DNA of 64,000 nucleotides, taken from contig JAMAHW010000015.1 in the NCBI GenBank assembly GCA_023627715.1, forward strand, positions 372,001-436,000, read 5' to 3'. Under the pieces are notes generated by a model. That model had not been told where the DNA came from. It did no database searches and saw nothing but the letters and a program-made list of their open reading frames with translations. Numbering within the stretch: position 1 is the first letter of the stretch; every line of letters starts with the position of its first letter. Positions 25,563 through 63,227 of this stretch are shown in pieces. This stretch comes from Periconia sp. R9002 (lineage: Eukaryota; Ascomycota; Dothideomycetes; Pleosporales; Periconiaceae). The position numbers and the translations under genes were made by a program.

Positions 25563-27038
25563 ATGGCCATTATCGATCTATCCAGTATAAAAGATGCCTT
25601 CTCCTCCGCTCCCTCATCGATACCCGCATCTTCCTCCTCCTCGTCAGAGAACCTAATATCAGACACAATGGCTTCTCTTCCGTCAGTTCGGAGCTTATCG
25701 AAGCTCGCCTTCGGCGGGGCACAGGTGTTGCTTGGTGGGGGACAGACCGTTCTCGGTGGGACACCGGCTACGTGCTCGAACCCGCAATTGAGCTGCCATA
25801 ATACCACCATCGTGCAGGATCTTTGCTGCTTCAACGCGCCCGGTGGACAGTTGCTGCAGACGCAGTTTTGGGATACCAATCCTCCTACTGGACCTAGTGA
25901 GTGATCCCGGGTACAACACCTCATTGGTGACGGTTTGAGGTTTTTCAAACATTGAGATATCCAGTTGAACTTTACTGACCATTTTCTGTGTTTCAGGCGA
26001 CAGCTGGACCCTTCACGGCTTATGGCCTGATCGATGTGACGGCACATACGACGCCAACTGCGATCCCTCCCGCGCGTACACGAACATCTCAGCCATCATC
26101 AAGGGCTTTGGCAAGACGGATTTGCTCAACGACATGAATACATACTGGAAGGACTACAAAGGCGACGACGAAACTTTCTGGGAGCATGAATGGGCAAAAC
26201 ACGGAACCTGCATCTCCACATTGGAGCCACAGTGCTACTCTGATCACACGGCGACCGAGGAAGTTGTAGATTACTTCCAAAAGGCAGTCGATCTTTTCAA
26301 AGCACTTCCCTCCTACGAGGTTAGTCGTTCATTTCCATCTCCCCACCCTACACAGCTTGTTAACGATCATAGTGGTTAGCAGCAGCCTCCATAACCCCGT
26401 CCACAACAGCAACCTACACATTCGCCCAAATCCAAGCCGCTCTCGCTGCAAACCGCCCAGGCGTCTCCGTAACCCTGGGCTGCCAATCCGGCGTCCTTAA
26501 CGAAATCTGGTACCACTACGACGTCCGCGGCTCCATTCAAACCGGCGAGTTCGTCGCCGCCGACCCAGACGGCACAAAATCCTCGTGCCCCTCAACCGGC
26601 ATCCGCTACCTCCCCAAGGGCTCCAGTGGCGGCGATCCCCCCTCCACAACAACCTCCTCCGGCCCTGCCCCCACCGGCGTCCCCTTCTCCGGCCGCGGCT
26701 TCCTCAACGTCAACGTCAACGGCGCGCAGAAGGGCTGCATCATCTCCGCTGGCACCTGGTACACCAGCGGTACCTGTGCCACATTCACCTCTACCACCTC
26801 CGGCAGCGGCTTCACGCTCTCCTCCTCAAAGGGCAAGTGCGGCGTGGTGAGCGGAGTGTTCACCTGTGGAAGCGGCGTCACGACCGCTACGACGTTTACG
26901 AATCTCGACGGCAAGTTGGCTGCTGGCGGGAATGCGGGATGGAGCGCGGATGCCGTCGCGAGTGGATCTACGCAGGAGAAGGTTTATGCTGGGACGGATA
27001 GGGCTGTTGGGTTTGGGATTAGTTGGCAGGCTGTTTAG
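25563..27038 (+). CDS. secreted ribonuclease T2 with fungal C-terminal domain
   Basis: Exons 25563..25896, 25997..26319 and 26373..27038 give 440 aa; donors are GTGAGT and GTTAGT. An alternative start at ATG 25668 (MASLPSVRSLSKLAFGGAQVLLGG) looks more like a signal peptide and would give 405 aa. The mature part begins CSNPQLSCHNTT...DLCCFNAPGGQLLQTQFWDT. Both catalytic segments are intact: CAS I HGLWPD (His118) and CAS II WEHEWAKHGTC (His175, His180). A Thr/Ser/Pro linker (GGDPPSTTTSSGPAPTG) leads to a ~110-residue C-terminal domain with paired cysteines, as in the Rny1-type fungal RNases. The enzyme cuts single-stranded RNA through a 2',3'-cyclic intermediate, outside the cell or in the vacuole. 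The promoter-like repeat array starts ~130 bp after the stop. Confidence 0.93.
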
Positions 27039-27280
27039 AGCCGCTGACTCCTATGATTTTTTATGATAGAATTTTTGTAGTGGAATGGGATTCATGTTCG
27101 ATCCCTCCTTTTTCGAAATCGTAGAACATACACTCATGTTTCCCATGAAATCGAATCGAATCACATAACAGTGATATATCTCATCACCACCACCATTCAT
27201 CATCGTCACCACCACCACCTTATACAATCCCCGCCCCCCTTCTCCCCTAGCCAAACATACTCGTACCGGAGCATTGGATC

Positions 27281-27362
27281 TTACTAATCCTCACCCTCTC
27301 GCTGTGTATATAAACCCCTCTCCTTTCCTCCTCTTGGTCTCTTTTCTTCTTCACACTGGTGT
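27281..27362 (+). promoter_or_regulatory. first core-promoter unit of the array
   Basis: TTACTAA at 27281, TATATAAACC at 27307, an uninterrupted pyrimidine-rich stretch, then CTTCTTCACAC with CACAC at 27352. This is the textbook layout of a fungal TATA promoter with a CT-rich initiator region. Transcription from it is inferred, not shown. Confidence 0.6.
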
Positions 27363-28707
27363 TTGTTTGGGAGCTGTTTATTTCTGAAACTCATGGATTG
27401 ATGAGCATGGCTGGGGTCGTGTGTGGTTGGAGTTCTTTTTATTAAAGACCCCGTTCACAAATATAACATGTGTGTGTCTCTCTCCTTATACCTGGGGTAT
27501 ATTTTCATGTGTTGTGCTCCCTATGTATCTTACGTTTTTGAAACTCACGATGGTGATGAACTCCATCTCTACCACCAACCTTCATCATCGTCACCACAGC
27601 CTTTCTTCAATTAAACACCCCCTTGTCGGAGCTTGTCAGTCAGTGCTTTGAATCTTACTAATTCTTGTCTGTGGTCGTGTATATAAACCCCCCTCCTTCC
27701 CTCCGTCCTTCCTCTTCTTTTCTTCACACTGGGGTTATGTGGGTGTTGTTTATTTCTAAATAGGTACTTCAGAAAGTTGACGGATGGGGATTTGTATGGT
27801 CTGTGTTTTTTTTTTTTTTTTCCAATTAAAAGTTTTGCGCTCCACCATATGTGTGTTTGTGCATGTGTGCATGTATGTCCGGATCCCTATCGTATACCCA
27901 TCGACACCTCTTATATGTTCGAAACACGCGATGGTAATGAACCTCATTACTACCACCGACCTTCATCATCGTGACTACCACTATACCCACAAGCTACATA
28001 TGTCTTGTCCCTTGTCCCTCGTACTAACAGAATCTTACTAATCCCCGCATTGTGTTGTCTATATAAACCTCCTACTTTTGCTCTTCTTGACTTTCTTCTT
28101 TTCTTCACACTAGGGTTGTGGGGGGTTATTTATTTCTAAAAAAAAGATGTCGGTGGACGATTGTATGGTTGGTTTGTGTGTTTGGTGTTTTTAATCAAAA
28201 ACGTCTAGCCATCCCAGCATGAGGGAGAGAGTGTGTGCCTCTATATCTTTTGTTGGTGGACTCATGTGTCTCACATTTTCGAACACCTGTTATGATGCTG
28301 ATGCCATTCACCACCACCACCATCATCATCACCATCATCACCGTTGAACCCACATACACCCCTTGTCAATTCCTTACTAATCCTTGTTTATGGCTGTAAA
28401 TATAAACCTCCCTCTTCTCCTTTCTCCCTTCTTCTCTTCTTTTATTCACACTAGGGTTGTGGGAGGTTGTTTATTTCTAAAACACAATTGATCAGATCTA
28501 TGGGGTTGGTGTGTCTGTGTACTTTTTATTAAACCCGGCAAAACGCTCAGCCATATGTGTGTGAGTGAGGAGGGAGTCTGTGTTTGTGGTGTGTGAACTC
28601 ATGTTTCTTATATTTTTCGAACACCTGTTGTGATGATGATATGCCTCGTCACCATCGTTGGGGATTATTACTACACTGTTCATAATCAGACACCCCCTGT
28701 CAGGTTC

Positions 28708-28805
28708 TTACTAATCCTTATGTATATCCGTGTATATAAACCCCCTTCTCTTCGTTCTATGCTTTCTTCTTTACACAGGTGTTATGGGGAGGCGTTTATT
28801 TCTAA
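28708..28805 (+). promoter_or_regulatory. well-preserved core-promoter unit of the array
   Basis: TTACTAA 28708, TATATAAACC 28733, CT-rich tract, ACACAGG around 28773, then GTTTATTTCTAAAA. It shows the fixed 25-bp step from bZIP-like site to TATA box. Confidence 0.6.
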
Positions 28806-29212
28806 AATTAAAGATATGGACGAAATGCTCGATGGTTGTGTTTGTGTGCGGTGTTTCTTTTATTAAAAACGACACATCAATGTCTGCGATGGGTCTGTGT
28901 GCCTGTGTGCTTCCTAATTTCTCAAGTACATGTATTCATTCCTCTTGTTTCCAAAACGATGATTCTCTTCATCACCACCGTTACTATCCCCTAACCAAAA
29001 ATCGTCATGTCAGGTAGCGGCTTTCTTACTAATTAACGCTTTCTGGCTGTGTATATAAACCCCCTTCTCTTCCTCCTTTCCCTCTTCTTCTTCTTTACAC
29101 GGGGGTTGTGGGGGATGTTTATTTCTAAAAATTAGAAATATGTTGGTAGTATGTGTTTGTGTGTGTGCGTGTGTTCTTCCTATTAAAGGACAAGTGGCTC
29201 AAGCCTTATGGC

Positions 29213-29214
<2 letters not shown>

Positions 29215-29244
<30 letters not shown>
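29215..29244. repeat. (GT)n microsatellite inside the array
   Basis: Expanded form of the GTGTGTG part of the GGCTGGGTTTGTGTGTG motif, showing that microsatellite growth helped the units diverge. Confidence 0.9.
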
Positions 29245-29248
<4 letters not shown>

Positions 29249-29784
29249 TCGATCAAAATTCCAGCTGCAGAGTCTGGATGGGTGCGTTTGGGTCTGTATG
29301 GGCCCTGGTCCTAAGAACATGCCCACGTTTTCGAACCCAATTGCGATGGTGATGGAATTCATCGTTCAGCATCATCATCATCATCATCATCATCCGCAAA
29401 TCTACAGCTACGAACTATACCTTGTCTCTTGTGCTAGTAGAGTCTTACTAATGTCTTGGGTTTTATCTTCTATATAAACTGCGTCTTTCTTCCCTTCTTT
29501 TCTTTTTCCTACTCACAGGGGTGTATTGTGCGGATTAGTCCATTTCCAAAAATCTCCAAGCACGTTTTAACATGTGTGTGTGAGTGTGTGCTTCTTAAAA
29601 AAAATTCTCAACGCCCTTTCTGATGGGTGCGTGTATACCTGTGTGGGTCCTAGTCCTGAGAATATGCCCATGTTTTCGAAATACAGAACGGTGATAAGTC
29701 TCATCACCACTGTTGATTATCATCATCACTGTCCCCCTACCGTACTTCTCCCCTAACTAAATATCTCCTTCTCAGGACAGAGTA

Positions 29785-29893
29785 TTAGTAATCGACGCTT
29801 TCGAGCTGTGTATATAAACCCTCCTTCTTTTCTTGTTCTATCCTTTCTTTTCTTCACACAAAGGGGCGGGGAATTTATGTACTTCTAAAAGGA
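29785..29893 (+). promoter_or_regulatory. array unit with reverse-complement bZIP site (TTAGTAA)
   Basis: TTAGTAA at 29785 is the reverse complement of the usual TTACTAA and keeps the same 26-bp distance to TATATAAACC at 29811. The base change therefore preserves a palindrome-tolerant bZIP half-site pair. Confidence 0.55.
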
Positions 29894-30714
29894 CAGACGC
29901 AAGCGTGCATGGTCGCGTTTGTGTATAGCCCCTAGCTTGATTAAAAAAGCCTCGAGAGATCCTGATGTGTGCGCTTGTGTGTCTGTGTGTGTCTTGGACC
30001 TGGAAGTATATACCCCCAGTGCTTGTTTTTCAAAATGATGATAGCCTTTAGCATCATCACTATCATCACCATCATTACTAAGTGAACACCTCTTATTAAA
30101 GCTTCTTGGAACCTTACTAATCACCCCCTTCTTGGTGTCTATATAAACCTGCCGTCCTTCTTTCTCTTCTTTCTTCTTCTCACTGGTGTCGCGGGGAAAT
30201 TTGTTCGTTTCTAAAAAGAGCAACATCTACATCTACACGGTTTTGTGTCTCTTCGTGTGTGTATTGAGAGAATTCGTTAAGCCCCTAGGGTTCCAGTTCA
30301 TGGCTGGGGGTTTGGCGTGTGGTCTGGTGTAGAGAAGTGTCAATGACGCTCGTTATCATCATCATCATCACCGCTGAACCCACATGCATCCCTCTCTTAG
30401 TCCCAGAGCCTTACTAATCCTCTCCTTCTCCCTCTCCCTGTGTATATAAGCTCCCATCTTTCTTCCCTTTCTTTCTTTTCTTTTCTACACGGGTGGAGGA
30501 AGGACTTTTTTGTTTCTCAAAAAAAAAAGAATCTCTGGACTCGCGTATGGCTGGTTTGTGTGCCGTGGGTGAGATTCGGTCAATTTTCGAAACCAAAAAG
30601 CTAATGTTGTGGGAATACCTATGTTCCATATGTTTTCGAGCTACAAAACGGTGTTGGGCCTCGTCATCACCACTCACTACCCCGTATACCTTGTCCCCTT
30701 GTACCAACAGAGTC

Positions 30715-30815
30715 TGACTAATCATCCTCCTGTTGGTGTCTATATAAACCCCCCGTTTTCTTCTTCTCTCTTCTTTTTTCTTCACACTGCAGGAGTAGGG
30801 ATTTGTTTATTTCTA
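30715..30815 (+). promoter_or_regulatory. array unit with TGACTAA variant
   Basis: TGACTAA at 30715, another AP-1/Yap-type site, 26 bp before TATATAAACC at 30741. CT-rich tract and CACACTG follow, then GTTTATTTCTAAAA. Confidence 0.55.
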
Positions 30816-33379
30816 AAAATGAGCTATCAGATGATACATGTGGTTGTGTCTGTTTGTGTGCTCTTTTACTAAAATTCCAACCCGCACTCTCAGATGGATG
30901 TGCGTACGTGTGGTCTTTTCTTACTAAAAAATCACTTATCTTCATCGCATGTGTGTGTCGTAGGTGAAATTTGCCTATCTTTCAAAGTGCTCAAACCCTG
31001 AGACATGTTCGTGTTGCTCATGTCTCTTATATTTTCGAATCCCGTGGTGATGGTGAATATATTCACCACCACCATCATCATCATCGCTACCGCCTTCCCC
31101 CTAACTGAATGCCCGTGTATCGGAGCCATAGTCTTAGTAATCGCCGCGTTGGGTCGTCTATATATATCTGCCTTCCTTCTTCCCTTTTCCCTTTCTTCTT
31201 CACACAAGTGTGTGTAAGGAGTTTGCTCATATATGAAGCTCATAAGCACGAAAAATATGACTGGATTTTTTGTTCGTTTGTTTTGAGTTTTTTTTATAAA
31301 AGATGATCAATCTTCTGGTCCATGGGTGTCTGTGTCTGTTTGTGGGTGCCGTGGGGAGTATACTCATGTTCCTTCATTCTTAAAGTGTACCCTCCTGACG
31401 ATGCCACTCTTCATCATTATCATCATCACCAGTCATTGCGGTCCTCCAAAACCCACAACCCTTAAGAACTCTACTCCCCTTCCTGAACACTCCTTATTTG
31501 AGCCTTTCTTACTAATCCTTATGTACAGCAGTGTATATAAACCCCCTCCATCCGTCTTTCTTCTGTGCACAGGAATGCGTGGAGGGGATTTATATATTAT
31601 GAAATTACCACAAAAGATTGCAATGGTTGGTTGTCTATGTTGTCTTTCATTCAAAAACTACACAATATCTAGAATGATGTGCCGGTGTCTGTAGGGAGCT
31701 TAGTATACTCATGTTTCGTATGTTTCGAAACTTACCAAAAGTGGTACTCTTCATCGTCATCACACCACCACCACCACCATTCATTACTGTCCTCCCAAAT
31801 CAACGTGACAGTGTCTTACTAATCCTCGTCTCGCCGTACGTATAAATTCCCTTCTCTACTTGTCCTCTTTCTTTCTCCTCTACGCAGGTGTGCTAGGTGG
31901 CATTTGTATGTTTCTAAACGACAAGGACTATTACCATGATTGGGGTTCTGTGGTGGAGAGGTGTGCATGTTTATAAAAGACAATGACCCTCTACACATGG
32001 CTGGATTTGTGTATCTTGTGTTCTTTGACGAAAACCTAGAAAACTCATATACCATGTCCGTGTGTGCCTGTGGGTGTGGTGGAGAAGTATCCTCACGTCC
32101 CTCACATTTTTGAAACTCCTGATGGTGGTACTCTTCACCGTCATCATCACACTCATTATCGCCACTAACCTCTATATGTTATCAACTCTACCTACGCATA
32201 TGCATCCTCCTATTAAATAGTGCATTTACTAGTAACCTACCTCCTCGGATGTGTATATAAATATTCCTCCTCTTCTTTCCTTAGCTTTACTTTCTCTTTA
32301 CACAGGTGTGAGATTGGTGAAATTTACTGATTTCTAAAAACAAAAGATCACCACACTTTATGGCTGGATTTTGGTTTACAGGGGAGTTTACTCACTTCTA
32401 AAAGGTACCCTGGCAGCTACAGTATGAACCTTGTCTTCCACACCCACGATGATACTATCCATCATCATCATCATCACTGTAAACCCACAACCTATCATCA
32501 GACAGGGCTTTAAGCCTTACCAATTCTCTTCTATCCGGCCGTGTATAAAAACCCGCTCTTCTCTTGTGTCTCTTTCTCCTCTTTGTATTTCACAATTATC
32601 ATGGGGGGAGATTTGTTTGCTAAAACGAACTCGGTCTAAATATCATGGCTGGGTGTTTGTGTGTTGTTGCTTTTTTATTAAAATGCGCTGGATTTGCGAA
32701 ACAATGGGTGTATGGTTGTGTGTCTGAGTTGCTAGGGTGTGCTCATGTGTCCTATTTTCGAGATCGTACAATGCTGACACTCATTGTCATTACTATAAAT
32801 GTCCTCATCGCTAGAATATGCTGATGCGATTCAAGGTTTTGAGAAAACGAGCGTGACGTGACTCATCACCACTCTGCATTACCGTCACCCTAAACCCTCT
32901 ATCCCCTCTCCAGACGTCTATATAAAGCCCCCGCTCCCTTTCTTCCTTTCTTTACACGAGCATGGTGCGGATGAAATTTGTTTATTTCTAATTTCTAAAA
33001 GCAAGTAATGAAGACACATGGCTGGGGTTGTTTTTGCAAATTTGTCTATCTTTTAAAAGACAATGGGAAAGCCATTATGATTTGTTTGTGTGAGGAAATT
33101 TGTTTCTTACCAAAAGGTGCTCTCACGACCACCAGAGTATGCTTATATTTCTGAATCTTCGCAACGATGATACTCATCAGCGTCATCATCATTACCGACC
33201 ATCCGTCCCCATCGACCACACACATAGATCCCATGACCACGGTCAGTGCTTTATCCTTACTAATCCACTTTCCCGTTTTGTATATAAACTTCCTCCTTTT
33301 CTCTCTCTTCTCTTCTTCTTTTTTCTTTTCACACGCTGTGGTGGGTGATAATTGCCATTCTTTTTTTAAAAAAAAGTGG

Positions 33380-33830
33380 AATGCTTCCTCATGGCTGGGG
33401 TTGGGTTTGTAGTGTTTTTGCTATAAGCCCAATGCAGATTTCATTATGGGTGTGTGCGTGTGCAGTACACAACTTTAATTTTTTCAAAAATAAGCTCATG
33501 CAATGGTATGTTGCTGGGTTTGTGTGTGGGTGTGTGTTTGATTCAAAACTCCTCGTAATGTTTGAGAATCTGTGTATGTGGAGAAAACATCTGTCTACCT
33601 CTAAACAATTCGGAATGAAAGATGGTACATGGCCCGGCCTTTGTGTGAGAGATTCGTCAAATTCTAAAAGTCCTGGGCAGACACTAGATGGCTGGGTTTG
33701 TGTGTGGGATAATTTGTTTATTTCTAGAAAACTACAAGGAGCGCACAAATGGCTGGGTTTGTTTGTGTGTGTTGGAGAACTTTTGATATGTCTAAAAAGG
33801 GGCCTAACGAACACATGAGTTAATTCTTTC
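33380..33830 (+). repeat. promoter-less sub-repeat block within the array
   Basis: About six copies of a ~65-75-bp module follow one another without TATA or bZIP boxes: ATGGCTGGGTTTGTGTGTG, a short spacer, TTTGTTTATTTCTAAAA or a decayed form, and a variable 15-20-bp tail. The clearest copies start near 33389, 33504, 33628, 33691 and 33748. This module is the transcribed-side half of the larger unit and appears to have multiplied on its own. Confidence 0.65.
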
Positions 33831-35330
33831 ACGAGAATTTTTCCTAAGTGTGATCATGTTTCATGTGTTTGATGAAGTCTTTCATCATCCCCAGCTATAT
33901 GTAAGCATCTTTGTCTGTCCCGATAGTGGGAATAATATATGTTTGTTAAAACAAATGCTTGAATTTATCAATGGCGGGATTCCTATGTGGTGATTCTTTT
34001 TGCGACCAGTGATCAGTGTCTGTGTGCGCGTGAAAAGATTTTGGATTTATCAAAATACCCACCACCCCGGTCCACGGGTACCTACTTATCTCTGTCTGTA
34101 TGGGCTTGTGTTCGGTTTGAAAAAAACAGCTAGTTGATCCTATGTTGTCTCTGTGTGTGGTGTTTTGATTTCCAACTATGTGGCCATGTTTTAGGGTTCA
34201 AAAAGCCACAGTTGAATTGATGGTCGAAAAAGAGGGCGAACGTTTCATAGTAGATATTGGTTATGACGCTCAACGTTATCGTCACTACACTTACGAATCT
34301 TGCACATCCACAGCTCGCAGTGCTCTTATATATTGGATCGGCGGATGCTTAATAATCACCACTTTCCGCCGTCTATATAAACCTCCCTTCGACCCTCCCT
34401 ATCCCTACCTCTTGTTGATTTTCAAAAATGTGTTGTGGGGAAGTCGTCTATTGTTTTGATAAAAATCGACCCAAAAGAAAACGTATGTGTGGTGTGTGTG
34501 CTCTTAAAAATTTTACGTCTCATGTATGATGTCTGTGTGTGTTTCATTGTATTTTGGCATATTCCAAAAGATATTCGAAGTGGAAATTATGGCTGGAGTT
34601 GCCTGTGTACGGCGTTTGTTTCTGATCTGATTAAAACACCCCGAATTTTTATAGCATGAGTATGTGTGTGTCTCTCTTGGTATCCTTTTTTTCTTAAAGA
34701 AATTCAAAGTGGAAATTATGACTCGTGTCTATCTTTACATATTTAGATATCGGTGGTGATGATGAAGCTCATTGCTACTATTGCCTCAGTTACAAACAGT
34801 ATACACCTTCAATTTGCCTTTCCTATGTCGGTTGGATATTAGAGCATTACTAATCCACTTTATGGCCATGTATATAAATACCCTTCCTTTGTTACTCTTT
34901 TTCCCTTTCTTCTTCTTCACGCACAGGTGGGGTGGGGAATTTGTCTATTTTCTAAAAAACGAACGCATTGAAATCGGCGGACGAACTATGGAATGTCTGG
35001 CCTTTTTCGGTCGCGATCAACCCAGCAAGCCCAGAAAAATTGAGAACATGAGGACATCAAAAATGGAGAAGTGAAGACCGCGAAGGCCCTTGACACTCGC
35101 ACGAAAGGCGATGCGGCGAAGGACATTCTGACACGGCGATGATTTTCATCGTGAGAGCACTTCCTCTAAATCATACATTTGAAACCTGACTAACTTCTAC
35201 TCCCGCTGTCTATATTAACCTCCATTCTCTTCTACTTACCATTTTTCTTCTTCACACGAGTGAGTGAGTGAGCTTTAGCAGGTGCTTCGAACCAGGCTGG
35301 AACACCCGGAGTAACGAAGTGAAATGGCGG

Positions 35331-45365: not shown

Positions 45366-45524
45366 TCTTGTGTTTTGCCTCTGCAATCAAAAAAAGGTCT
45401 GTCTTCTGGATATATGTCTTTGCTGTGTTGTCCGTCTTTTTAAATCTAGTCACGAACATGAAATGTTGTTTCGTGCGAAACTATCATGTTCATGCTCTCT
45501 ATTTTTGATTCGCTCAATGTGATG

Positions 45525-45695
45525 CTCATCATCATCATCATCATCATCATCGCAAACGCCGCCACCATTCAATGTCTGCTGACTAACACACAGGTAGATT
45601 GTGTATATAAACCTCATCATCTTCCCTCTCTCTTCCTTCTGTTTCTTTTTTTTTCACGCTGCGATTTGGTTTCTCACTTTTTCTAAAAACCGCAT
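45525..45695 (+). promoter_or_regulatory. well-preserved outlying promoter unit
   Basis: An ATC trinucleotide run (45530-45552), TGACTAA at 45580, TATATAAACC at 45604 (24-bp step), CT-rich tract, TTTTCACGCTG and TTTTTCTAAAAACC. Every module of the main array is present, 10 kb away from it. Confidence 0.6.
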
Positions 45696-46842: not shown

Positions 46843-47584
46843 TCACTTTTGGCTCTCCATATACTCCTCGCCATCAGATCCCAATAGCTTTTGATATGCA
46901 CTTGGATTTTTGCCTTCGCTAAGGAGCGCGATGGCCAAATCGGCAAGGAATGCGTGGGGAAATTGTTCCGGGTACACTTGCAAGGGTCCCGTCCAACCGA
47001 AGTCCGAGAATGAGTTTACAACAAGGCGTCGTAGTGGGCTACCGTGAGGTGTTCCTCCATATATCAAACTGACGGTATTGGCACCAAATGTCTCTAGATG
47101 GCCATTAGGATTCGGCTTCTTCAATTCTCCGACCAGTGACTTGATAACCGAATTCTTGGTTGAAACATCTTGCAGTTTCTCTGCAAGGATATAAAGCTCA
47201 GCCAGATTTTCTAATCCCGTGCCATTCTCGGGCGACAGCGGAATATCTCCAGTATATATAAGGTTCATATAAGCCTCAAATATGTCCGCACAATCTTCTG
47301 GAAGTTTGACAATTCGAGCGGATGCCTCGGCCCAGTTACCATTTATCGCCCGACGAAAGAACTCGGAGCGCTCACACACGATTCCCTCATGAACTGGGAA
47401 GTCTTCTTGGTGCTCATCTTTGCCAACAACAACTTTCAGGAACGATGCAGGATTGAAACTAGACTTTTAGCCCTGAACTTAAGAAGTAGATACCGAGAAC
47501 TCACCTTTTCGCACTCGTTTTTTTGGTAACTCGCGGGGTCATCCTGCTTCTGTCCGAAGTGTTTGTCTGGTTACTTGACGACAT
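46843..47584 (-). CDS. BTB/POZ domain protein (paralogue A)
   Basis: Exons 47584..47505 and 47458..46843 give 231 aa; the intron has a GTGAGT donor and a TCTAG acceptor. A short basic N-terminus (MSSSNQTNTSDRSRMTPRVTKKTSAK) precedes a BTB fold: FLKVVVGKDEHQEDFPVHEGIVCERSEFFRRAINGNWAEASARIVKLPEDCADIFEAYMNLIYTGDI, then the helical LAELYILAEKLQDVSTKNSVIKSL. This is the layout of small fungal BTB-only proteins, which form dimers and may act as Cul3 adaptors, though no Cul3 box or substrate domain is visible. A minus-strand TATATAAACCCC at ~47701-47712, ~120 bp upstream, is the same TATA form used in the noncoding array. The adjacent gene is its paralogue. Confidence 0.85.
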
Positions 47585-48276
47585 TGCTGATCTTCACCCT
47601 CAAGGATGAACTGGAGGTATCATGGAGATTGTGAATACAGAGAGTGTAGACTCCGCTGGCAAATATTGTGTATGCTCCAAAGAGTAGGTGAAGCGAAGTC
47701 GAGAAAAAGGGGTTTATATAAGTTCTAGATTGAGGAGAGCGATCAAAAGTGCCTCAAGAGGTAGAATAGGTGGGCGAGGGCATATATCTATGCCTTGCAT
47801 GGGGCAGCAAACACCAGGGAGGTCATGTGACTGGGGTATCAAACCAATAGTTTAAGCATTTATATTAGCCCAAGTCGGCGCTAGGGGTTTGCAAGAAAGG
47901 AAAGATGAGCGGCACGTGCCGACCCTGTAGAAATTTCCCTCCGGGATCCAATCTTTCTAGTTCCTCCATTCATTAACCAATTTTGTGTTCCATTTTCCAT
48001 TCTTATTTTTCGAAGCAATTGAACCAATGCTGGGCTAGCATTGATGGCTTGGATGCAGAACCTGAACATGACTCTGACCTCGTCAGACGTGAAACTCAAA
48101 TACAGAAAGGTCCATCGAGCGAGTATCTCCACTAATATCAGCATGATTGACTAAGACCAAACGAAAAAATGGGTTCTCATACCTTGAGATTTAGTTACGC
48201 CAGCTTCCGGTATCGCGATCTTTTCATGATTGCGCCGTGCGATCCATCCTTCATTGACATGGTTTCCGTATCAGGT
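47585..48276. other. spacer between the two BTB genes
   Basis: Contains the promoter of paralogue A (TATATAA near 47705, minus strand) and, at 47932-47985, the second copy of the duplicated 3' flank. No further intact coding sequence. Confidence 0.6.
47932..47985 (-). repeat. duplicated 3' flank, copy 2 (BTB gene pair)
   Basis: Homologous to 46726-46777 but ~290 bp after the stop of the second BTB gene, so sequence was inserted or lost on one side after the duplication. Confidence 0.7.
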
Positions 48277-49040
48277 TTAATCTTGATCAGACCCAATTTT
48301 CTCTAGGTATTGCTCGCAATGATTGTCCTGCCAATCTAGATTTTTATACGTGGCTAGTGCAGAGATAGCAAGGTCATGGAAAAATTCCTTAGGAACTACA
48401 TCCAGTACTCCTTTCCGCATCAGCCATGAAACACCCGATTGGCTCTTGAAAGTATCAACGATCAACTTTCTTAATGGGCAGTTTGGCGGTGTTCCCATCC
48501 ATACTTCTCTAACCATCGTCGTCGAAAATCGATGTCTTATGTTCATTTCACTCTTGGTTCTGCGCGCGCTCCAGATTGATTTTAGAACCGCATTCTTAGC
48601 CAATACATCCTGTAGCTTCTCCGCAAGAACATAGACTCGACCTAAATCTTCGTATTCTGCTTTTAATTGATCTTTCGTTGGTGGTGTGGTTGACACGTTT
48701 AGCTGTGTCGGAATTCTGCCGGTATATATGAGGTTCAAATACGTCTCGAAGACATACACACTGTCCTCCGGGAGATTGACAATCCGATCTGATGATTCAA
48801 CCCAGTTACCGTTCATCGCTCGGCGGAAGAATTCAGAGCTTTCGCATACAGTCTCCTGGTGGACTAAGAACGTTTTTTGGTCCGGATTCTTCCCAACAAC
48901 AACCTTGAAGAATGAGTCGACATCGTAACTGACTTTGGTTAGACATTTTCAGGCGATGGTGGATTAACTTACCTTCTCCTGCTCTTCTTGGGGGTACTTT
49001 GCATCACCTCCTCAGCACTTCTCTTGTTATCCGACGCCAT
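48277..49040 (-). CDS. BTB/POZ domain protein (paralogue B)
   Basis: Exons 49040..48973 and 48928..48277 give 239 aa, with the intron at the same place as in paralogue A (phase 2, just before the BTB domain). N-terminus MASDNKRSAEEVMQSTPKKSRRS is basic. The BTB domain reads DSFFKVVVGKNPDQKTFLVHQETVCESSEFFRRAMNGNWVESSDRIVNLPEDSVYVFETYLNLIYTGRI, followed by LGRVYVLAEKLQDVLAKNAVLKSIW. The two proteins share the FFRRA(I/M)NGNW block and the C-terminal PLR(R/K)L(V/I)V(N/D)(S/T)F stretch. B has a longer loop after TGRI. Function is unknown beyond protein-protein interaction. Confidence 0.85.
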
Positions 49041-59442: not shown

Positions 59443-60348
59443 GACGGCGTCTGAGGAATGTGGTAGGGGAAGGGGTCGTTGGGGGTAATTTACTACTTAC
59501 ATTGTGAAGATACATCCAATGCTGTGGATGTGTAGGAGATATATTCATGTACTATGTAACCACATCCAAATGAATCACTGTGACTACTTGTATGTACATA
59601 ATGTAGCATATCTCAAAAATACATAAAAAGTCAGAAACAGTTCCTCCGAAACTTTCATTTCAAGCCTCCCACACTACTATATAAGATGTATACTTAAGAA
59701 CCAAGTCTTTCATGACTGGATATATACCGTCAAAGTCTTTTATGACTACTATATACTCCCACACACACTTTTAAGTCCTCAGGGACTTCTATATATTCTC
59801 ACACATCTTCATGTCCTCGGGACTTCTATATACTGTCCTACACCCTCAAAGGCCTTCATGGCTTCTATATACTGTCACACATCCTCAAGGTCTTTCATGG
59901 CTTCTATATACTCCTACACACACCTTCAAAGTCGTCACTTGACTTCTATATACCTTACTTCACCTTACCGTTGGTCCATTTCTAATAATGGCAGTTCAGC
60001 AGGAGCTATTATGGCAATGCACGTTCACATCAACTATACTCTCACACAGTGGGAAGCACATTATGGGAAAGTGGAAATCGCATGTCAGTCATTGATTTGT
60101 CTGTTCCTTGACTACCTATAAAGGAAGAAGGAGACCACCACCTCATAAACCTCCCCGCATACCAAAGCCAGTGACCTTACCATTCAAAGAAAGTAGCGGC
60201 TAGAAAAATTGACCGGGGGGATTGGGTAATAAACATATCAGTGAAACCATTTGTAGAGTGCCCTTAAAAACTCTTCCGAGGAAGATACCGTGGGCCTCCT
60301 GAGAGTGTAGAGTGTTGTTGATAACACCTCATCGTGTCGGTCAAAGCA
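59443..60348. other. intergenic with a short tandem repeat
   Basis: Lies between the convergent HNH-like and Argonaute genes. It holds the ~40-bp repeat listed separately; the rest is featureless. Confidence 0.6.
59700..59965. repeat. ~40-bp minisatellite with internal AAGTC/GACTT palindromes
   Basis: About seven diverged copies, each of the form (A)AAGTC-n6-GACTTCTATATACT-n-CACAC-n. Copies start near 59700, 59728, 59771, 59810, 59847, 59886 and 59927. Each holds a short inverted repeat (AAGTC/GACTT) and a TATATA core. Confidence 0.85.
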
Positions 60349-63227
60349 CTAGATGTACCACATAACCTCCTTGATAGCAGAGCTGCCCATCTTGATGAGG
60401 GGAGCAATGTTGACATCGCGGCGACCGGTAGAGCCTGTAGACGACTTCTCCTCCTTGGCCTTGCTCTCCTTCTTGCCTGAAGAGACGGGGTTCTCGTTCA
60501 AGTGAGCTCGGGCACGATCAGCAGCCAAGTGGGCGTAGTAGACAGCTGGATGCATAGAGACTGGGGTGGTTGATCGCACGTAGGAGAAAGCGTGCTCGAA
60601 GATGAATTGCTGAATCTCAGGAGCCGTCCACTCGCCCTCGTTGAGGATACAGTGATAGTGAATTGGACGAGCTGTACCCTTGATCGCCACGTGAGAACAC
60701 ATGTAGAAGTCGAACTCAAAGGGATGAGTGACTCCAGCTTCCACCAGGGTACCAGGGACGGGATTTCCGTTCTTGTCGCCCTTCTGGGGGAAGAAGCGAA
60801 CGTGGTGGCGCTTTCCAGCAATCATGACCGTGAACTTGGGGGCCTCCTTGGCGCCAACACGCATAAAAGCCTTCTTCATATCATGGATTTCCTCCTCAAG
60901 AACAGCGGCATACTGACCCTCAGAGACACCGTCACGAATGTACATGACTCGCTTCGGAGGGTGACCGTTACCAGCGCGCTGCATCCAGAGCTTGATCATT
61001 GGCGTGAAGTGATTTTCGATATTGTTAGAGGTGATCATCTCAATGCGGTTGCCGTTGGTCTGAACGTCAGCCCAGTAGCGAGTGAACTTGGTGTCCTGGG
61101 ATACCGTAATGGCGGCAATGGATGCAGCCTCTCCAGAACCAGCACCGGGTGCAGGGTGAGAAACGTCGGCTCCCACGACCATGGTAGGAATCTTGTGGTG
61201 GTTGGGTGCGATCTTGTTGATAGTGTTTGACGTGACAACTGTAGTAGACCCACCCAGCTTTGCGTTGACCTTCATGCAGACGTTTGAGATGTACTGTCCA
61301 GAGCAAGACATGACCTGTTTAGATTGTAGAACCTGAGACACGATACCGAAACGACAGTCCAAAGACTTCTTGAGTCGTCGATAGACTTCGGCATTGCGGT
61401 CGTTGACGATGAAGAACATCAAGGCAGGATTCACGCCCCAGTATTTGCCAGTGGCATTGTAAGCTTTCGCGACCAGCTCACCACCATCGGCGAGACTACC
61501 TTGTCCCATCCATGGTGCTTTACCCAGTTGAGGGTGAGACATGATCCGTCCGCCGTGGCCTTCGTAGATCCGAATAAATTCAGAGAAGAACTTGGTGACC
61601 ATTTCCCTAGGAACACCCGGATCAGTCTTGCGGGTCGGCATAATAACGCAAACACCCCAGCCCTTCAGAGGATTCTGGTTGGGTACAGCGAACTTGCGCC
61701 CATCAAGACGCCATCGGCCGGCGGTCAGATCCGAATCCTTGATCTTAGGCTCCTTGCTACCTGCACCGAAGTTGACGGTAGGGTTTGGAAGGATGCGAGC
61801 CTTGACTTGAGAGGGATTGGAATTGATGCTCAGGCCATAGTGCTTCAGGTATGGGTCCTTCTGCCAATTGAGAAGAGAGACGCCAAACTGGATGGCCTTC
61901 CAGCGGTTTGCGGGAACAGAGACGGCAAACTTGATCATAGCTGATGTCTGCTGGTCGCTTAACTTGGTAGTATAGCGCTGGTTCTGGTCGATGCGGAGGA
62001 ATTCCAGTGGTAGATAGACAGGACCTCCACGAATTTTCTTGGTCATCTTGACGACGGGAAGTTTGGGTGAAAGGGATTTGCCGTACTTCTCCCGGAAATA
62101 TGTCATCAGAGAGATTTGTTTGTTGGCGTCGTCAGGGTCCGGGAACTTTGCCTCGTCTGGAGTCATATTGACGAACTCATCGATAGTCCACTGCTGAGGA
62201 GTACCGTGCGTAGAAGTGACACCGACGTGCCTATAGCGACGAAGATCTTTCTTGAACAGAGACTTGTTCCAATCCTTGCGAGCATCTTGGAATCGCTGGG
62301 CGAACTGGGCCTGGTTGCAGTTGAATGCCTGAATAACGGAGCGACCGAGATCTTGGGCGCGCCAGAAGGTACCATTGGCCACGTCGACGTTGACACCGAG
62401 AGACTTTTTATAGTTGTCGTTCAGGACAGGGCGAAGTGACGAGAAGACACCTTTGAAGGCCTCGACTCCACCACCAAGATCGTGACGTGTCTCGCCACGC
62501 TGGAAGAATGACTTCTTGATCTGCGTGTATCGCTGAGATGGATACTCGCGCATGAGGTGATCGAGAAAGTTGATTGCATCGATACATTCCGGATGCCAGT
62601 CAGCCGACTTTTGTAGGAACGCATCAAGCCCAGCAAAGTTGACTTTGCGCGTGCGGCGAAGGAAGAGCGTGTGCTCATTGTTGTTTCCGTCAGCGCGAGG
62701 CTTGCGAGGCTTTCCAGTGACGTTCTTCGGGTCGTCGAGATTGACTTTGATACGGGTTTCCTCCCTACCAAGGTCAAGAGTAGACCTAGACTAGTTAGTA
62801 AAACACAAATGGATAAAGTAAGGGCAAGAGACTCACCAGGCAAGCTTGTTGCCATCAAAGATCCAGTGGTGATTCTCCTCTTTCAAAGCGTCCTTGACAG
62901 TTCGTGAATTCCAGATCTTCTTGGCAAAGACGCGCATATTCTTTTCTTCCTTCATGTTGGCAGGCTTGGGAATGACAATCTGCATCATATTAGTATCCCT
63001 TCAAGATCTCTGCATGAGAGCTCCCAACTTACATCGTATTGCCAGACATCTCGAGAAGGAAAGCCGACCACGTTGAAGGAATTGAGCATAACCAGAGTCT
63101 CTTTACCAAGCTTGTTGAACTCGGTTGGGCGCTGAGGAAGGCCAGCGGGAGGAGTGATCTTGAAGGCGTCAGTATCGATTTTAAAATGTGTTGCTTGATG
63201 AGGGTTGTGGGAGATTGGGGTCGCCAT
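60349..63227 (-). CDS. Argonaute (QDE-2-like RNAi effector)
   Basis: Exons 63227..63033, 62979..62837 and 62785..60349 give 924 aa from MATPISHNPH. Introns have GTAAGT/GTGAGT donors and ACTAAT/ACTAAC branch points. The Argonaute N domain starts at LPQRPTEFNKLGKETLVMLNSFNV. PAZ-like sequence follows (ERxTxL1 region near LRRYRHVGVTSTHGTPQQWTIDEFVN). The MID domain includes NPALMFFIVNDRNAEVYRRLKKSLDCRFGIVSQ. The PIWI tetrad is intact: Asp653 (VVGADVSHP), Glu695 (NRIEMI), Asp731 (YIRDGVSEGQ) and His822 (RPIHYHCIL), so slicer activity is expected. The C-terminus is IKEVMWYI. The protein binds small RNAs and silences matching transcripts, defending against viruses and transposons. A further 5' exon may exist (63475..63704). 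Confidence 0.93.

Follow-up and report, generated by a model that had tools for sequence, protein, structure and literature searches.

Tandem arrays of promoter-shaped units with recurrent Yap1/AP-1-type sites in the genome of Periconia sp. R9002

The window, the whole stretch of 64,000 nucleotides analysed here, carries an array of 21 TATA-like boxes on the + strand (starts 27307 to 35211) that follows the end of an RNase T2 gene (Table 1). Units 1 to 18 are packed into 6 kb (TATA 27307 to 33281), and the distance from one TATA start to the next is 290-497 bp, with the single exception of 1093 bp between units 18 and 19. An earlier note on this DNA had described 21 same-strand TATA units, 18 of them in 6 kb, and all were found where it had placed them. 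The array is real: between 27160 and 35330 there are 15 copies of TATATAAA, whereas 300 dinucleotide shuffles gave 0.19 on average and never more than 2. TATATAAACC is present 10 times, compared with 0.01 in the shuffles, and the minus strand of the array holds a single TATATAAA. With 15 copies of the one and 10 of the other, it is therefore an overstatement that nearly all boxes are TATATAAA followed by CC. A profile built from the units recovered all 21 of them (59-103 bits, the best background score in 440 kb of simulated sequence being 5.5 bits) and in addition the decayed unit at 45.5 kb, which was also matched by a genome-wide pattern; relics lie at 43.8-46 kb of the window. Partial profile matches were also obtained at 33642-33762, within the promoter-less stretch. 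An Argonaute gene is located 25 kb from the array, an observation that proves nothing.

Table 1 Features of the array and its surroundings, in window positions
Feature	Position	Strand	Elements	Profile score (bits)
RNase T2 C-terminal part (flanking gene end)	26373..27038	+	Pfam PF25488 (E 3.4e-42), PF00445; directly 5' of array	
Upstream element, unit 1	27124..27220	+	TTTTTCGAAA and GTGAT..ATCAC dyad with CAC/CAT triplets	
Unit 1	27276..27419	+	TTACTAA 27281, TATA 27307, CT tract, CACAC, TTTATTTCTGAAA	102.8
Unit 2	27649..27792	+	TTACTAA 27655, TATA 27680	100.5
Unit 3	28027..28174	+	TTACTAA 28035, TATA 28060	101.7
Unit 4	28366..28510	+	TTACTAA 28374, TATA 28399 (AATATAAACC)	91.6
Unit 5	28699..28845	+	TTACTAA 28708, TATA 28733	92.6
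Unit 6	29023..29166	+	TTACTAA 29026, TATA 29052	97.8
Unit 7	29438..29589	+	TTACTAA 29445, TATA 29471	61.9
Unit 8	29777..29922	+	TTAGTAA 29785, TATA 29811	91.2
Unit 9	30107..30248	+	TTACTAA 30114, TATA 30140	91.4
Unit 10	30404..30556	+	TTACTAA 30411 (32 bp from TATA), TATA 30443	78.0
Unit 11	30707..30853	+	TGACTAA 30715, TATA 30741	89.5
Unit 12	31126..31269	+	TTAGTAA 31134, TATA 31159 (TATATATA)	80.5
Unit 13	31505..31636	+	TTACTAA 31509, TATA 31534	70.5
Unit 14	31807..31949	+	TTACTAA 31816, TATA 31841 (TATAAATT)	78.3
Unit 15	32226..32370	+	TTACTAGTAA 32226, without exact TKASTMA; TATA 32254	73.2
Unit 16	32511..32658	+	degenerate TTACCAA 32517, TATA 32544	72.1
Unit 17	32902..33031	+	without site at -25; TGACTCA 32859, 60 bp upstream; TATA 32919	76.3
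Unit 18	33253..33402	+	TTACTAA 33257, TATA 33281	73.2
Promoter-less stretch	33389..34300	+	repeated ~60-nt modules (GT-rich, T-run, AAAA), read from sequence	
Unit 19	34342..34494	+	degenerate TTAATAA 34349, TATA 34374; without clear CACAC	76.5
Unit 20	34839..34981	+	TTACTAA 34847, TATA 34871	87.0
Unit 21	35181..35305	+	TGACTAA 35187, TATA 35211 (TATATTAACC)	59.4
Decayed unit	45499..45691	+	TGACTAA 45580, TATA 45604, CT tract, CACGC, TTTTTCTAAAAA; E 1.6e-14	47.5

The units of the array family are mostly 240-420 bp long. From the 5' end they contain a dyad or CATC-rich element, in about half of them an exact Yap1/AP-1-type site, a TATA box about 25 bp past the site, a pyrimidine tract (~35-50 bp) and a CA initiator (TTCTTCACAC). 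Past the initiator come a 5' segment rich in G, a T-rich part that closes with CTAAAA, and GT-rich sequence. Many units have an element like the one upstream of unit 1 in front of them, in most cases between about -130 and -75. Downstream, T[TC][CT][AT]AAA peaks at +70 to +89 and GTGTG at +100 to +130; the motif-position count, which reports dense 10-bp bins only, gave no peak for the dyad or for TTCGAA. In the window, a CT tract with a CACAC-like end follows TATA in 20 of the 21 units, the end lying 38-52 bp from the TATA start. The earlier note had ascribed this arrangement to every box, and the exception is unit 19, where the pattern matcher detected none. This spacing fits the layout given for Aspergillus nidulans in the portion of PMC4046813 consulted, where TATA lies 30-45 bp upstream of the transcription start site (TSS) in a pyrimidine-rich context with a CA start. 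The units have the look of full Pol II core promoters, with no evident gene attached.

Pattern searches of the genome revealed related arrays on other contigs. In all, seven arrays of ~4-10 kb and one single-promoter relative were read, on six contigs of this one genome, to which the comparison of arrays is confined. Models trained with one locus left out found 116 units in the left-out loci, all sense and none antisense. When a strict TATA-CT-CACAC pattern was run over 42.9 Mb, all 15 matches fell inside loci of this family, which argues against the units being just the normal fungal core promoter. A looser version gave 29 matches (21 in the loci read, 7 in two further clusters and 1 elsewhere); the sole isolated match of the strict patterns was at C3:78.4 kb. 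Clusters beyond the loci read are located on C49 (91.5-99.0 and 119.8-120.1 kb), C3 (75-78 kb) and C1 (1345 kb). A still looser site-plus-TATA pattern gave 17 matches outside the arrays read; ordinary promoters may account for some of these matches. DNA queries with two single units matched their own array alone and missed the related arrays as well, because it is mainly element order and spacing that are kept. The window array is a member of a family sharing one grammar. Contig C1 carries three of the arrays, and the idea that they mark centromeres was therefore dropped.

Of 110 units, 58 carry the motif TKASTMA at -32 to -20 of TATA; its density elsewhere (14 sites in 41,002 other positions) predicts about 0.5 such units. 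Near-consensus MTKASTMA/TTASTAA sites above background upstream of a start are the mark of Yap1/AP-1-type targets, MTKASTMA being the Yap1p/Cap1p consensus according to the part of PMC3111461 consulted. Among the 67 sites located between -45 and -5, 39 lie 24-26 bp from TATA. The exact site is absent from 52 of the 110 units, and also from C106. Several arrays were found with site-containing patterns, so the share of site-bearing units may be biased upward. When units were instead detected by TATA and pyrimidine tract without using the site, in the same eight loci and hence including arrays found with such patterns, 56 of 118 carried TKASTMA. These site-free units numbered 118 in sense and 1 in antisense orientation in the eight loci, and 3 in 41.9 kb of the window outside these loci. 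The forms of the 58 sites (TTAGTAA 22, TTACTAA 18, TTAGTCA 6, TGAGTAA 5, TGACTAA 5 and TGAGTCA 2) are variants of a single dimer site, swapped in strand or differing in a half-site, and the swapping argues for a double-stranded bZIP site. Outside C15, identity in the fixed bZIP segment is barely above shuffle level (C3 0.38/0.33, C12 0.35/0.32, C60 0.40/0.33). A Pap1-family gene is present in the genome.

Comparison within arrays showed that in the same units TATA is conserved well above shuffle level (C15 0.85 vs 0.41, C3 0.81 vs 0.43, C12 0.62 vs 0.41, C60 0.79 vs 0.40), whereas the spacer between bZIP site and TATA stays near it (C15 0.48/0.38, C3 0.39/0.35, C12 0.38/0.35, C60 0.40/0.35). 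Adjacent units resemble each other scarcely more than distant ones do, which leaves without support both the suggestion that the family spreads and a conveyor-belt growth with new units added at the 5' end. The other part of the earlier proposal, that the units are shaped and kept as promoters, agrees with their core promoter look, the retained TATA and element order among near-shuffle spacers and the recurrence of the grammar in other arrays. Profile scores fall from 5' to 3' in five of the seven arrays; the fall is missing in C1c and reversed in C1a (4 units read). TATA identity in C60 rises toward the 3' half (0.72 to 0.84), and spacer identity along the array is flat in C15 (0.49, 0.50) and falling in C12 (0.45, 0.36). 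We infer that the score fall reflects relaxed selection on distal units, perhaps via read-through of upstream transcription. Alternatively the distal units may be older, and given the near-saturation of divergence there may be an age gradient along the arrays. The earlier note had overlooked the Yap1/AP-1-type site, the post-start elements, the TGATG/CATCA dyad, the score fall and the other arrays.

Conserved RNA structure finds little support. An Rfam 15 scan of the window at gathering score gave 0 matches, and in the 21 window units none of the 5 dyad pairs had changed on both sides. In 17 of 110 units the dyad was reached by at most 5 of 100 shuffles, where about 6 to 7 such units are expected. 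The case for a conserved RNA hairpin is weak on these counts, hence our term dyad.

Several other explanations of the arrays have to be weighed. A DNA decoy, in which a Yap1/AP-1-type factor (and TBP) would be soaked up by the arrays and transcription be incidental, would account for 58 consensus sites coupled to TATA in 110 units and for spacers under little constraint. A sponge, however, has no need of a CT tract, a CA initiator, a single orientation or post-start elements, nor of sites placed mostly at a fixed distance from TATA, and we consider this explanation unlikely. The transcription-factor sponge of the earlier note may still describe part of what the arrays do, but in pure form it leaves orientation, initiator and post-start elements unexplained. 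It is quite improbable, in our estimate, that the arrays are a neutral remnant, a genuine promoter region that was duplicated in tandem long ago and is decaying without function. The near-shuffle level of most non-element sequence, the 3'-ward drop of profile scores and the relics at the far side of the window array are what such a history would leave. Decay would nevertheless hit elements and spacers alike, and it would hardly preserve one element order in seven arrays or an orientation bias of 118 to 1.

RNA-processing signals deserve attention because yeast 3'-end signals have a similar layout, with UAUAUA, a U-rich tract and then cleavage at CA, and because TACTAA looks like a branch site. 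Units read in this way would be poly(A)/termination signals, or branch site, polypyrimidine tract and acceptor, and not promoters. Each of the seven arrays read does start on the 3' side of a gene or long ORF of its own strand (in two cases an ORF without Pfam match). The 3' neighbours, judged from long ORFs, are same-strand in 3 of 6 cases and convergent in the other 3, so the count of seven out of seven mainly reflects avoidance of divergent intergenic regions. Moreover, 33 of the 58 sites have the form TTAGTAA, TTAGTCA or TGAGTAA, against 18 for TTACTAA; as double-stranded DNA these are the same site as TTACTAA, but as RNA they differ from it and are no branch sites. On this ground we rejected the view that TTACTAAT, CT tract and CACAG form a branch site with a 3' splice site. 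The length of the arrays also speaks against processing signals, which we regard as very unlikely. Protein genes, either very short or encoding repeat proteins in the module stretches, appear even less probable. The earlier note had reported that the units share no reading frame, and we saw none: the median length of first-ATG ORFs is 15 aa (107 units, 8 loci), equal to that of all 1054 array ATGs, and no open frame from the first ATG is shared as in a protein family. The recurrence of ATGGCTGG (11 copies in the window array, 1 elsewhere in the window) could point to coding, but with ordinary first-ATG ORFs its reading as a short peptide was rejected. Stop-free sense frames of 176 codons (33288-33818, reached in 1 of 300 shuffles) and of 134 codons in the C106 module stretch (14 of 300) likewise favour coding. 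Against this, the antisense frames of the two stretches are nearly equal in length (154 and 125 codons), as expected from stop-poor composition, and the C106 modules, measured from the module ends chosen, are spaced at 56-67 nt, with 5 of 11 steps not a multiple of three. Least probable of all is an array derived from solo LTRs or another transposon, or a classical satellite. Such an origin would suit units that are a few hundred bp long, stand head to tail and contain TATA and an initiator, but Tandem Repeats Finder reported just simple runs (GT, TCA) inside the array and no near-identical tandem units, the units are not homogenised, and non-element sequence is near shuffle level. The array-finding patterns gave one isolated match genome-wide; that the queries with two single units found their own array alone is a weak argument, since they missed the related arrays too.

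Our preferred explanation, to which we attach moderate confidence, is that the arrays are a tandem family of small, probably noncoding, bZIP-inducible Pol II transcription units. It draws on the observed anatomy and recurrence of the units, on TATA and element order kept against near-shuffle spacers, on ordinary first-ATG ORFs and on the presence of the Pap1-family gene. Oxidative or similar stress would activate a Yap1/Pap1-family bZIP factor, presumably the Pap1-family protein binding at the sites, and once active the factor would assist the recruitment of TBP and Pol II to each unit. The units would then be transcribed, each array yielding many short GU-/G-rich RNAs from one strand, and RNA, beyond the promoters alone, would be the selected product. 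Much more tentatively, the arrays may be a fungal counterpart of autonomous small-RNA clusters: more than 100 mini-genes that each have a TATA promoter, and in about half of the cases an exact Yap1/AP-1 site as well, would respond jointly to stress and flood the cell with noncoding RNAs of diverse GU-/G-rich sequence. Inheritance in such mini-genes, a suggestion we hold just as loosely, would preserve the promoter grammar together with a loosely defined RNA module (G-rich, T-run, CTAAAA) and not the RNA sequence. Possible roles of these RNAs include supplying RNA silencing, sequestering RNA-binding proteins, and acting on the array itself through transcription and R-loops.

Among known systems, the 21U-RNA (piRNA) loci of Caenorhabditis elegans resemble the arrays, as far as the sources consulted go, in comprising many separate, strongly clustered small Pol II units with their own upstream motif. 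Their product sequence is also little conserved. Such piRNA clusters are marked by short capped precursors that enter a Piwi-clade Argonaute. The arrays differ in being fungal, tandem on one strand and mostly 240-420 bp apart, in having TATA, Yap1/AP-1-type site and CA initiator in place of the Ruby motif, and in not being known to produce a small RNA. Arrays of 5S rRNA, spliced leader and snRNA genes are head-to-tail with one promoter per unit, homogenised, and conserved in their RNA. They share with ours head-to-tail units with their own promoter, but in our arrays identity is near shuffle level over most of the sequence, and the window has no Rfam match. Yap1/Pap1-regulated fungal stress promoters share the MTKASTMA consensus (PMC3111461, seen in part); in our arrays no gene follows, the site lies mostly 24-26 bp from TATA, and dozens of units stand in a row. 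The core promoters of A. nidulans have the same lead-in and start, yet TATAA lies upstream of only 11-21% of TSSs there (PMC4046813, same portion), whereas the strict patterns used here concentrate in family loci (15 of 15 and 21 of 29). No known repeat kind was matched in the searches made (Tandem Repeats Finder, Rfam in the window, unit DNA and patterns), and no description of such arrays was found in titles and starts of abstracts of open-licence PubMed Central. One long exact pattern gave 0 matches in a viral sequence collection, a result of little weight.

The arrays raise the question of why profile scores drop along most of them away from the 5' end. If the units fire, they would represent a large and easily missed class of regulated noncoding genes. 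They would also form a natural library of more than 100 promoters in which TATA, pyrimidine tract, initiator and often the bZIP site are shared while most of the remaining sequence varies, so that the rules of fungal core promoters could be read from evolution.

Same-strand units resembling Pol II promoters, put at about 21 by the earlier note, were indeed counted as 21 between 27.2 and 35.3 kb of the window. From 27160 to 35330 we found 15 exact copies of TATATAAA, against a mean of 0.19 and a maximum of 2 in 300 dinucleotide shuffles, and 10 copies of TATATAAACC, against 0.01 in dinucleotide shuffles. Successive units start 290-497 bp apart, with a single wider gap of 1093 bp. A profile derived from the units recovered all 21 at 59-103 bits, while the best score in 440 kb of simulated sequence was 5.5 bits. 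Profile searches also revealed weak dyads around 43.8 and 45.9 kb and, with a longer profile, one decayed unit (47.5 bits, E 1.6e-14). An exact TKASTMA lies 24-26 bp 5' of TATA in 16 of the 21 units and 32 bp 5' of it in one more, unit u10; site (b) agrees in form with MTKASTMA, the Yap1p/Cap1p site given in PMC3111461. The TATA element, pyrimidine tract and TTCTTCACAC agree with the mapped start sites of A. nidulans, with a TATA peak 30-45 bp upstream, a pyrimidine-rich region and a CA start, as described in PMC4046813.

Elements of the unit in 5' to 3' order, and coordinates of other features (C, contig; L, extracted locus)
Feature	Form or content	Position
(a) dyad region	frequent TTTTCGAAA, then GATGGTGATGA-n-TCATCACC grading into CAT/CAC triplets	mostly ~130 to 75 bp 5' of TATA
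(b) bZIP-type site	CTTACTAAT	5' of TATA
(c) TATA element	TATATAAACC	
(d)	pyrimidine tract	3' of TATA element
(e)	TTCTTCACAC	end 38-52 bp past TATA start, 20/21 window units
(f)	G-rich stretch	3' of TTCTTCACAC
(g)	TTTATTTCTAAAA	~+70 to +90
(h)	GT-rich stretch, frequent start ATGGCTGG	3' of TTTATTTCTAAAA
(i)	more T-rich/AAAA stretches	3' of the GT-rich stretch
Decayed unit		window 45499-45691
BTB-domain genes	tandem pair	window 46843-48948 (-)
Minisatellite	39/76-bp period	window 59730-59953
Argonaute gene	25 kb from window array	window 60349-62790 (-)
RNA-dependent RNA polymerase gene	near array C1c	L087:1968-2942 (+)
Single-promoter relative	one promoter, then modules	C106:46.4-47.2 kb; L083:1076-1860
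Possible further arrays	pattern matches	C49:91.5-99.0 kb and 119.8-120.1 kb; C3:75.1 and 78.4 kb; C1:1345.1 kb

The assembly comprises 42.9 Mb in 267 contigs, the window lying on C15. It encodes an Argonaute with 88% identity to the Periconia macrospinosa protein, on which basis we regard the host as Periconia-like (Pleosporales). Searching the assembly with site (b) plus TATA gave matches on C1, C3, C12 and C60, and direct reading identified these loci as more arrays with the element order of C15 and different sequences. In all, we covered seven arrays, some in part (C15, C3, C12, C60 and three on the minus strand of C1, named C1a to C1c), and C106, a relative with one promoter only. Leave-one-locus-out models, whose training units were originally reached by iteration starting at C15, recognized 116 units in the left-out loci, all sense and none antisense (C15 22, C3 21, C12 29, C60 15, C1a 4, C1b 12, C1c 12, C106 1). 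The all-loci model gave two weak antisense matches in C12 (12.5 and 9.3 bits). Detection with TATA and pyrimidine tract alone yielded 118 sense units and 1 antisense unit across the eight loci; the 41.9 kb of window sequence lying outside 26.9-49 kb yielded 3 and 0, respectively.

The pattern TATAWAARC-Y7-N12..40-YTTYWCAC, through which C106 was discovered, has 15 matches genome-wide, all within the eight loci (reversed control 0). A looser TATA-CT-CACAC pattern has 29 (control 0), of which 21 fall in the loci read, 7 in two C49 clusters and 1 at C3:78.4 kb. The loosest, site plus TATA, has 52 against 5 in the control; 35 lie in the arrays read, one being the 45.5-kb relic, and the other 17 comprise AT-rich sequence as well as isolated sites that may belong to ordinary promoters. 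These counts indicate that the complete TATA-CT-CACAC combination hardly occurs outside the array family, whereas the bZIP-TATA pair alone does. Short pattern matches within AT-rich sequence on C36, C57, C94, C98, C190 and others, many near contig ends, are perhaps RIP-affected repeats.

TKASTMA occurs at -32..-20 of TATA in 58 of the 110 units that the eight loci provided, where ~0.5 would be predicted from 14 sites over 41,002 other array positions. Between -45 and -5 there are 67 sites, 39 of them at offsets 24-26. Because the site was part of the profile and seed patterns, we recounted it on units detected without it, and 56 of 118 carry it. The exact site is absent from 52 of the 110 units and from C106. 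Its forms are TTAGTAA (22), TTACTAA (18), TTAGTCA (6), TGAGTAA (5), TGACTAA (5) and TGAGTCA (2), the commonest differing by array: TTACTAA in C15 (13/18), TTAGTAA in C12 (10/12) and C60 (6/7), TTAGTCA in C3 (5/9) and TGAGTAA in C1c (4/8). A Pap1-family gene is present on C68 (305 bits).

Since alignment inflates all identities, pairwise values are quoted with shuffled values in brackets. Identity in C15 is 0.85 (0.41) for TATA, 0.55 (0.33) for the bZIP segment, 0.48 (0.38) for the bZIP-TATA spacer, 0.52 (0.40) from initiator to TTCTAAAA, 0.59 (0.54) for the pyrimidine tract, 0.46 (0.43) for the dyad side and 0.46 (0.42) for +95..+145. The values for C3, C12 and C60, respectively, are 0.81 (0.43), 0.62 (0.41) and 0.79 (0.40) for TATA, 0.38 (0.33), 0.35 (0.32) and 0.40 (0.33) for the bZIP segment, understated by the fixed window because the site varies in position and form, 0.46 (0.40), 0.45 (0.41) and 0.48 (0.41) for the initiator, and 0.39 (0.35), 0.38 (0.35) and 0.40 (0.35) for the spacer. 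TATA thus stands out in all four arrays, the other segments exceeding shuffles moderately in C15 and slightly elsewhere. Inter-unit distance has hardly any effect on identity (rank correlations -0.19 to +0.03 in C15, C3 and C12; -0.29 to +0.23 in C60), and the arrays appear to be old, without homogenisation of their units.

Left-out-locus scores drop 5' to 3' in C15, C3, C12, C60 and C1b (rho -0.61, -0.78, -0.59, -0.54 and -0.84; each p < 0.05), are flat in C1c (-0.02) and rise over the four units covered in C1a. From the 5' to the 3' half of C15, TATA identity falls from 0.92 to 0.79 and that of the bZIP segment from 0.67 to 0.45, with no drop in the spacer (0.49, 0.50). The spacer drops in C12 (0.45 to 0.36), and TATA identity climbs in C60 (0.72 to 0.84). 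Weaker selection on distal units fits best in C15; their greater age could also account for the score drop. Each of the seven arrays has a same-strand gene or long ORF upstream (RNase T2, protein kinase, zinc-binding dehydrogenase, PH-domain protein, AAA_28 protein and two ORFs without Pfam match; that of C1a ~2 kb off). Because the 3' long ORFs of the six arrays covered are split between same-strand (C15, C3, C60) and convergent (C12, C1b, C1c), placement seems mainly to avoid divergent intergenic regions. The RNA-dependent RNA polymerase and Argonaute genes probably lie near arrays by coincidence.

Among five alternatives we place foremost a decoy, in which the arrays titrate a bZIP factor. 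In C106 a single promoter precedes a row of 12 modules, each ~60 nt long (G-rich, T-run, CTAAAA), and the row decays towards its 3' side. At E <= 1 the module model has weak sense matches in C15 (5, at 6 to 12 bits), C1b (1) and C1c (1) but not in C3, C12, C60 or C1a; no antisense match was seen, nor any match in the 41.9 kb of the window outside the array. These matches suggest a modular transcribed part, which would speak against a pure promoter decoy. Next comes a decaying remnant, although neutral decay would not readily leave element order and TATA in such old, non-homogenised arrays. For RNA-processing signals, placed third, the site forms are difficult: they are half-site or strand-swapped versions of a single dimer site in double-stranded DNA, which speaks against a signal on one strand as their common denominator. 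In 17 of 110 units (~6 to 7 expected), no more than 5 of 100 shuffles reach the TGATG/CATCA dyad, and no covariation was seen across the 21 window units; given this weak excess and absent covariation, an RNA hairpin is not established.

Protein products, including a repeat protein in the module stretches, come fourth and seem very improbable. Stop-free sense frames of 176 codons (window 33281-34300; reached in 1/300 shuffles) and 134 codons (C106; 14/300) would favour them, but antisense frames there are also long (154 and 125 codons), so stop-poor composition is likelier, and first-ATG ORFs of 107 units have a median of 15 aa, equal to that of 1054 array ATGs. A transposon or satellite comes last. 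Against a satellite, Tandem Repeats Finder reported only simple runs in the window array, and the units are not homogenised; no described family was matched by Rfam (window), own-genome DNA searches or literature listings on such arrays. We lean towards a reading in which a Yap1/AP-1-type factor would bind and induce the units as Pol II promoters, their transcripts would be short, functional noncoding RNAs, and selection on promoter grammar, as conservation within this one genome suggests, may have kept old tandem arrays genome-wide.
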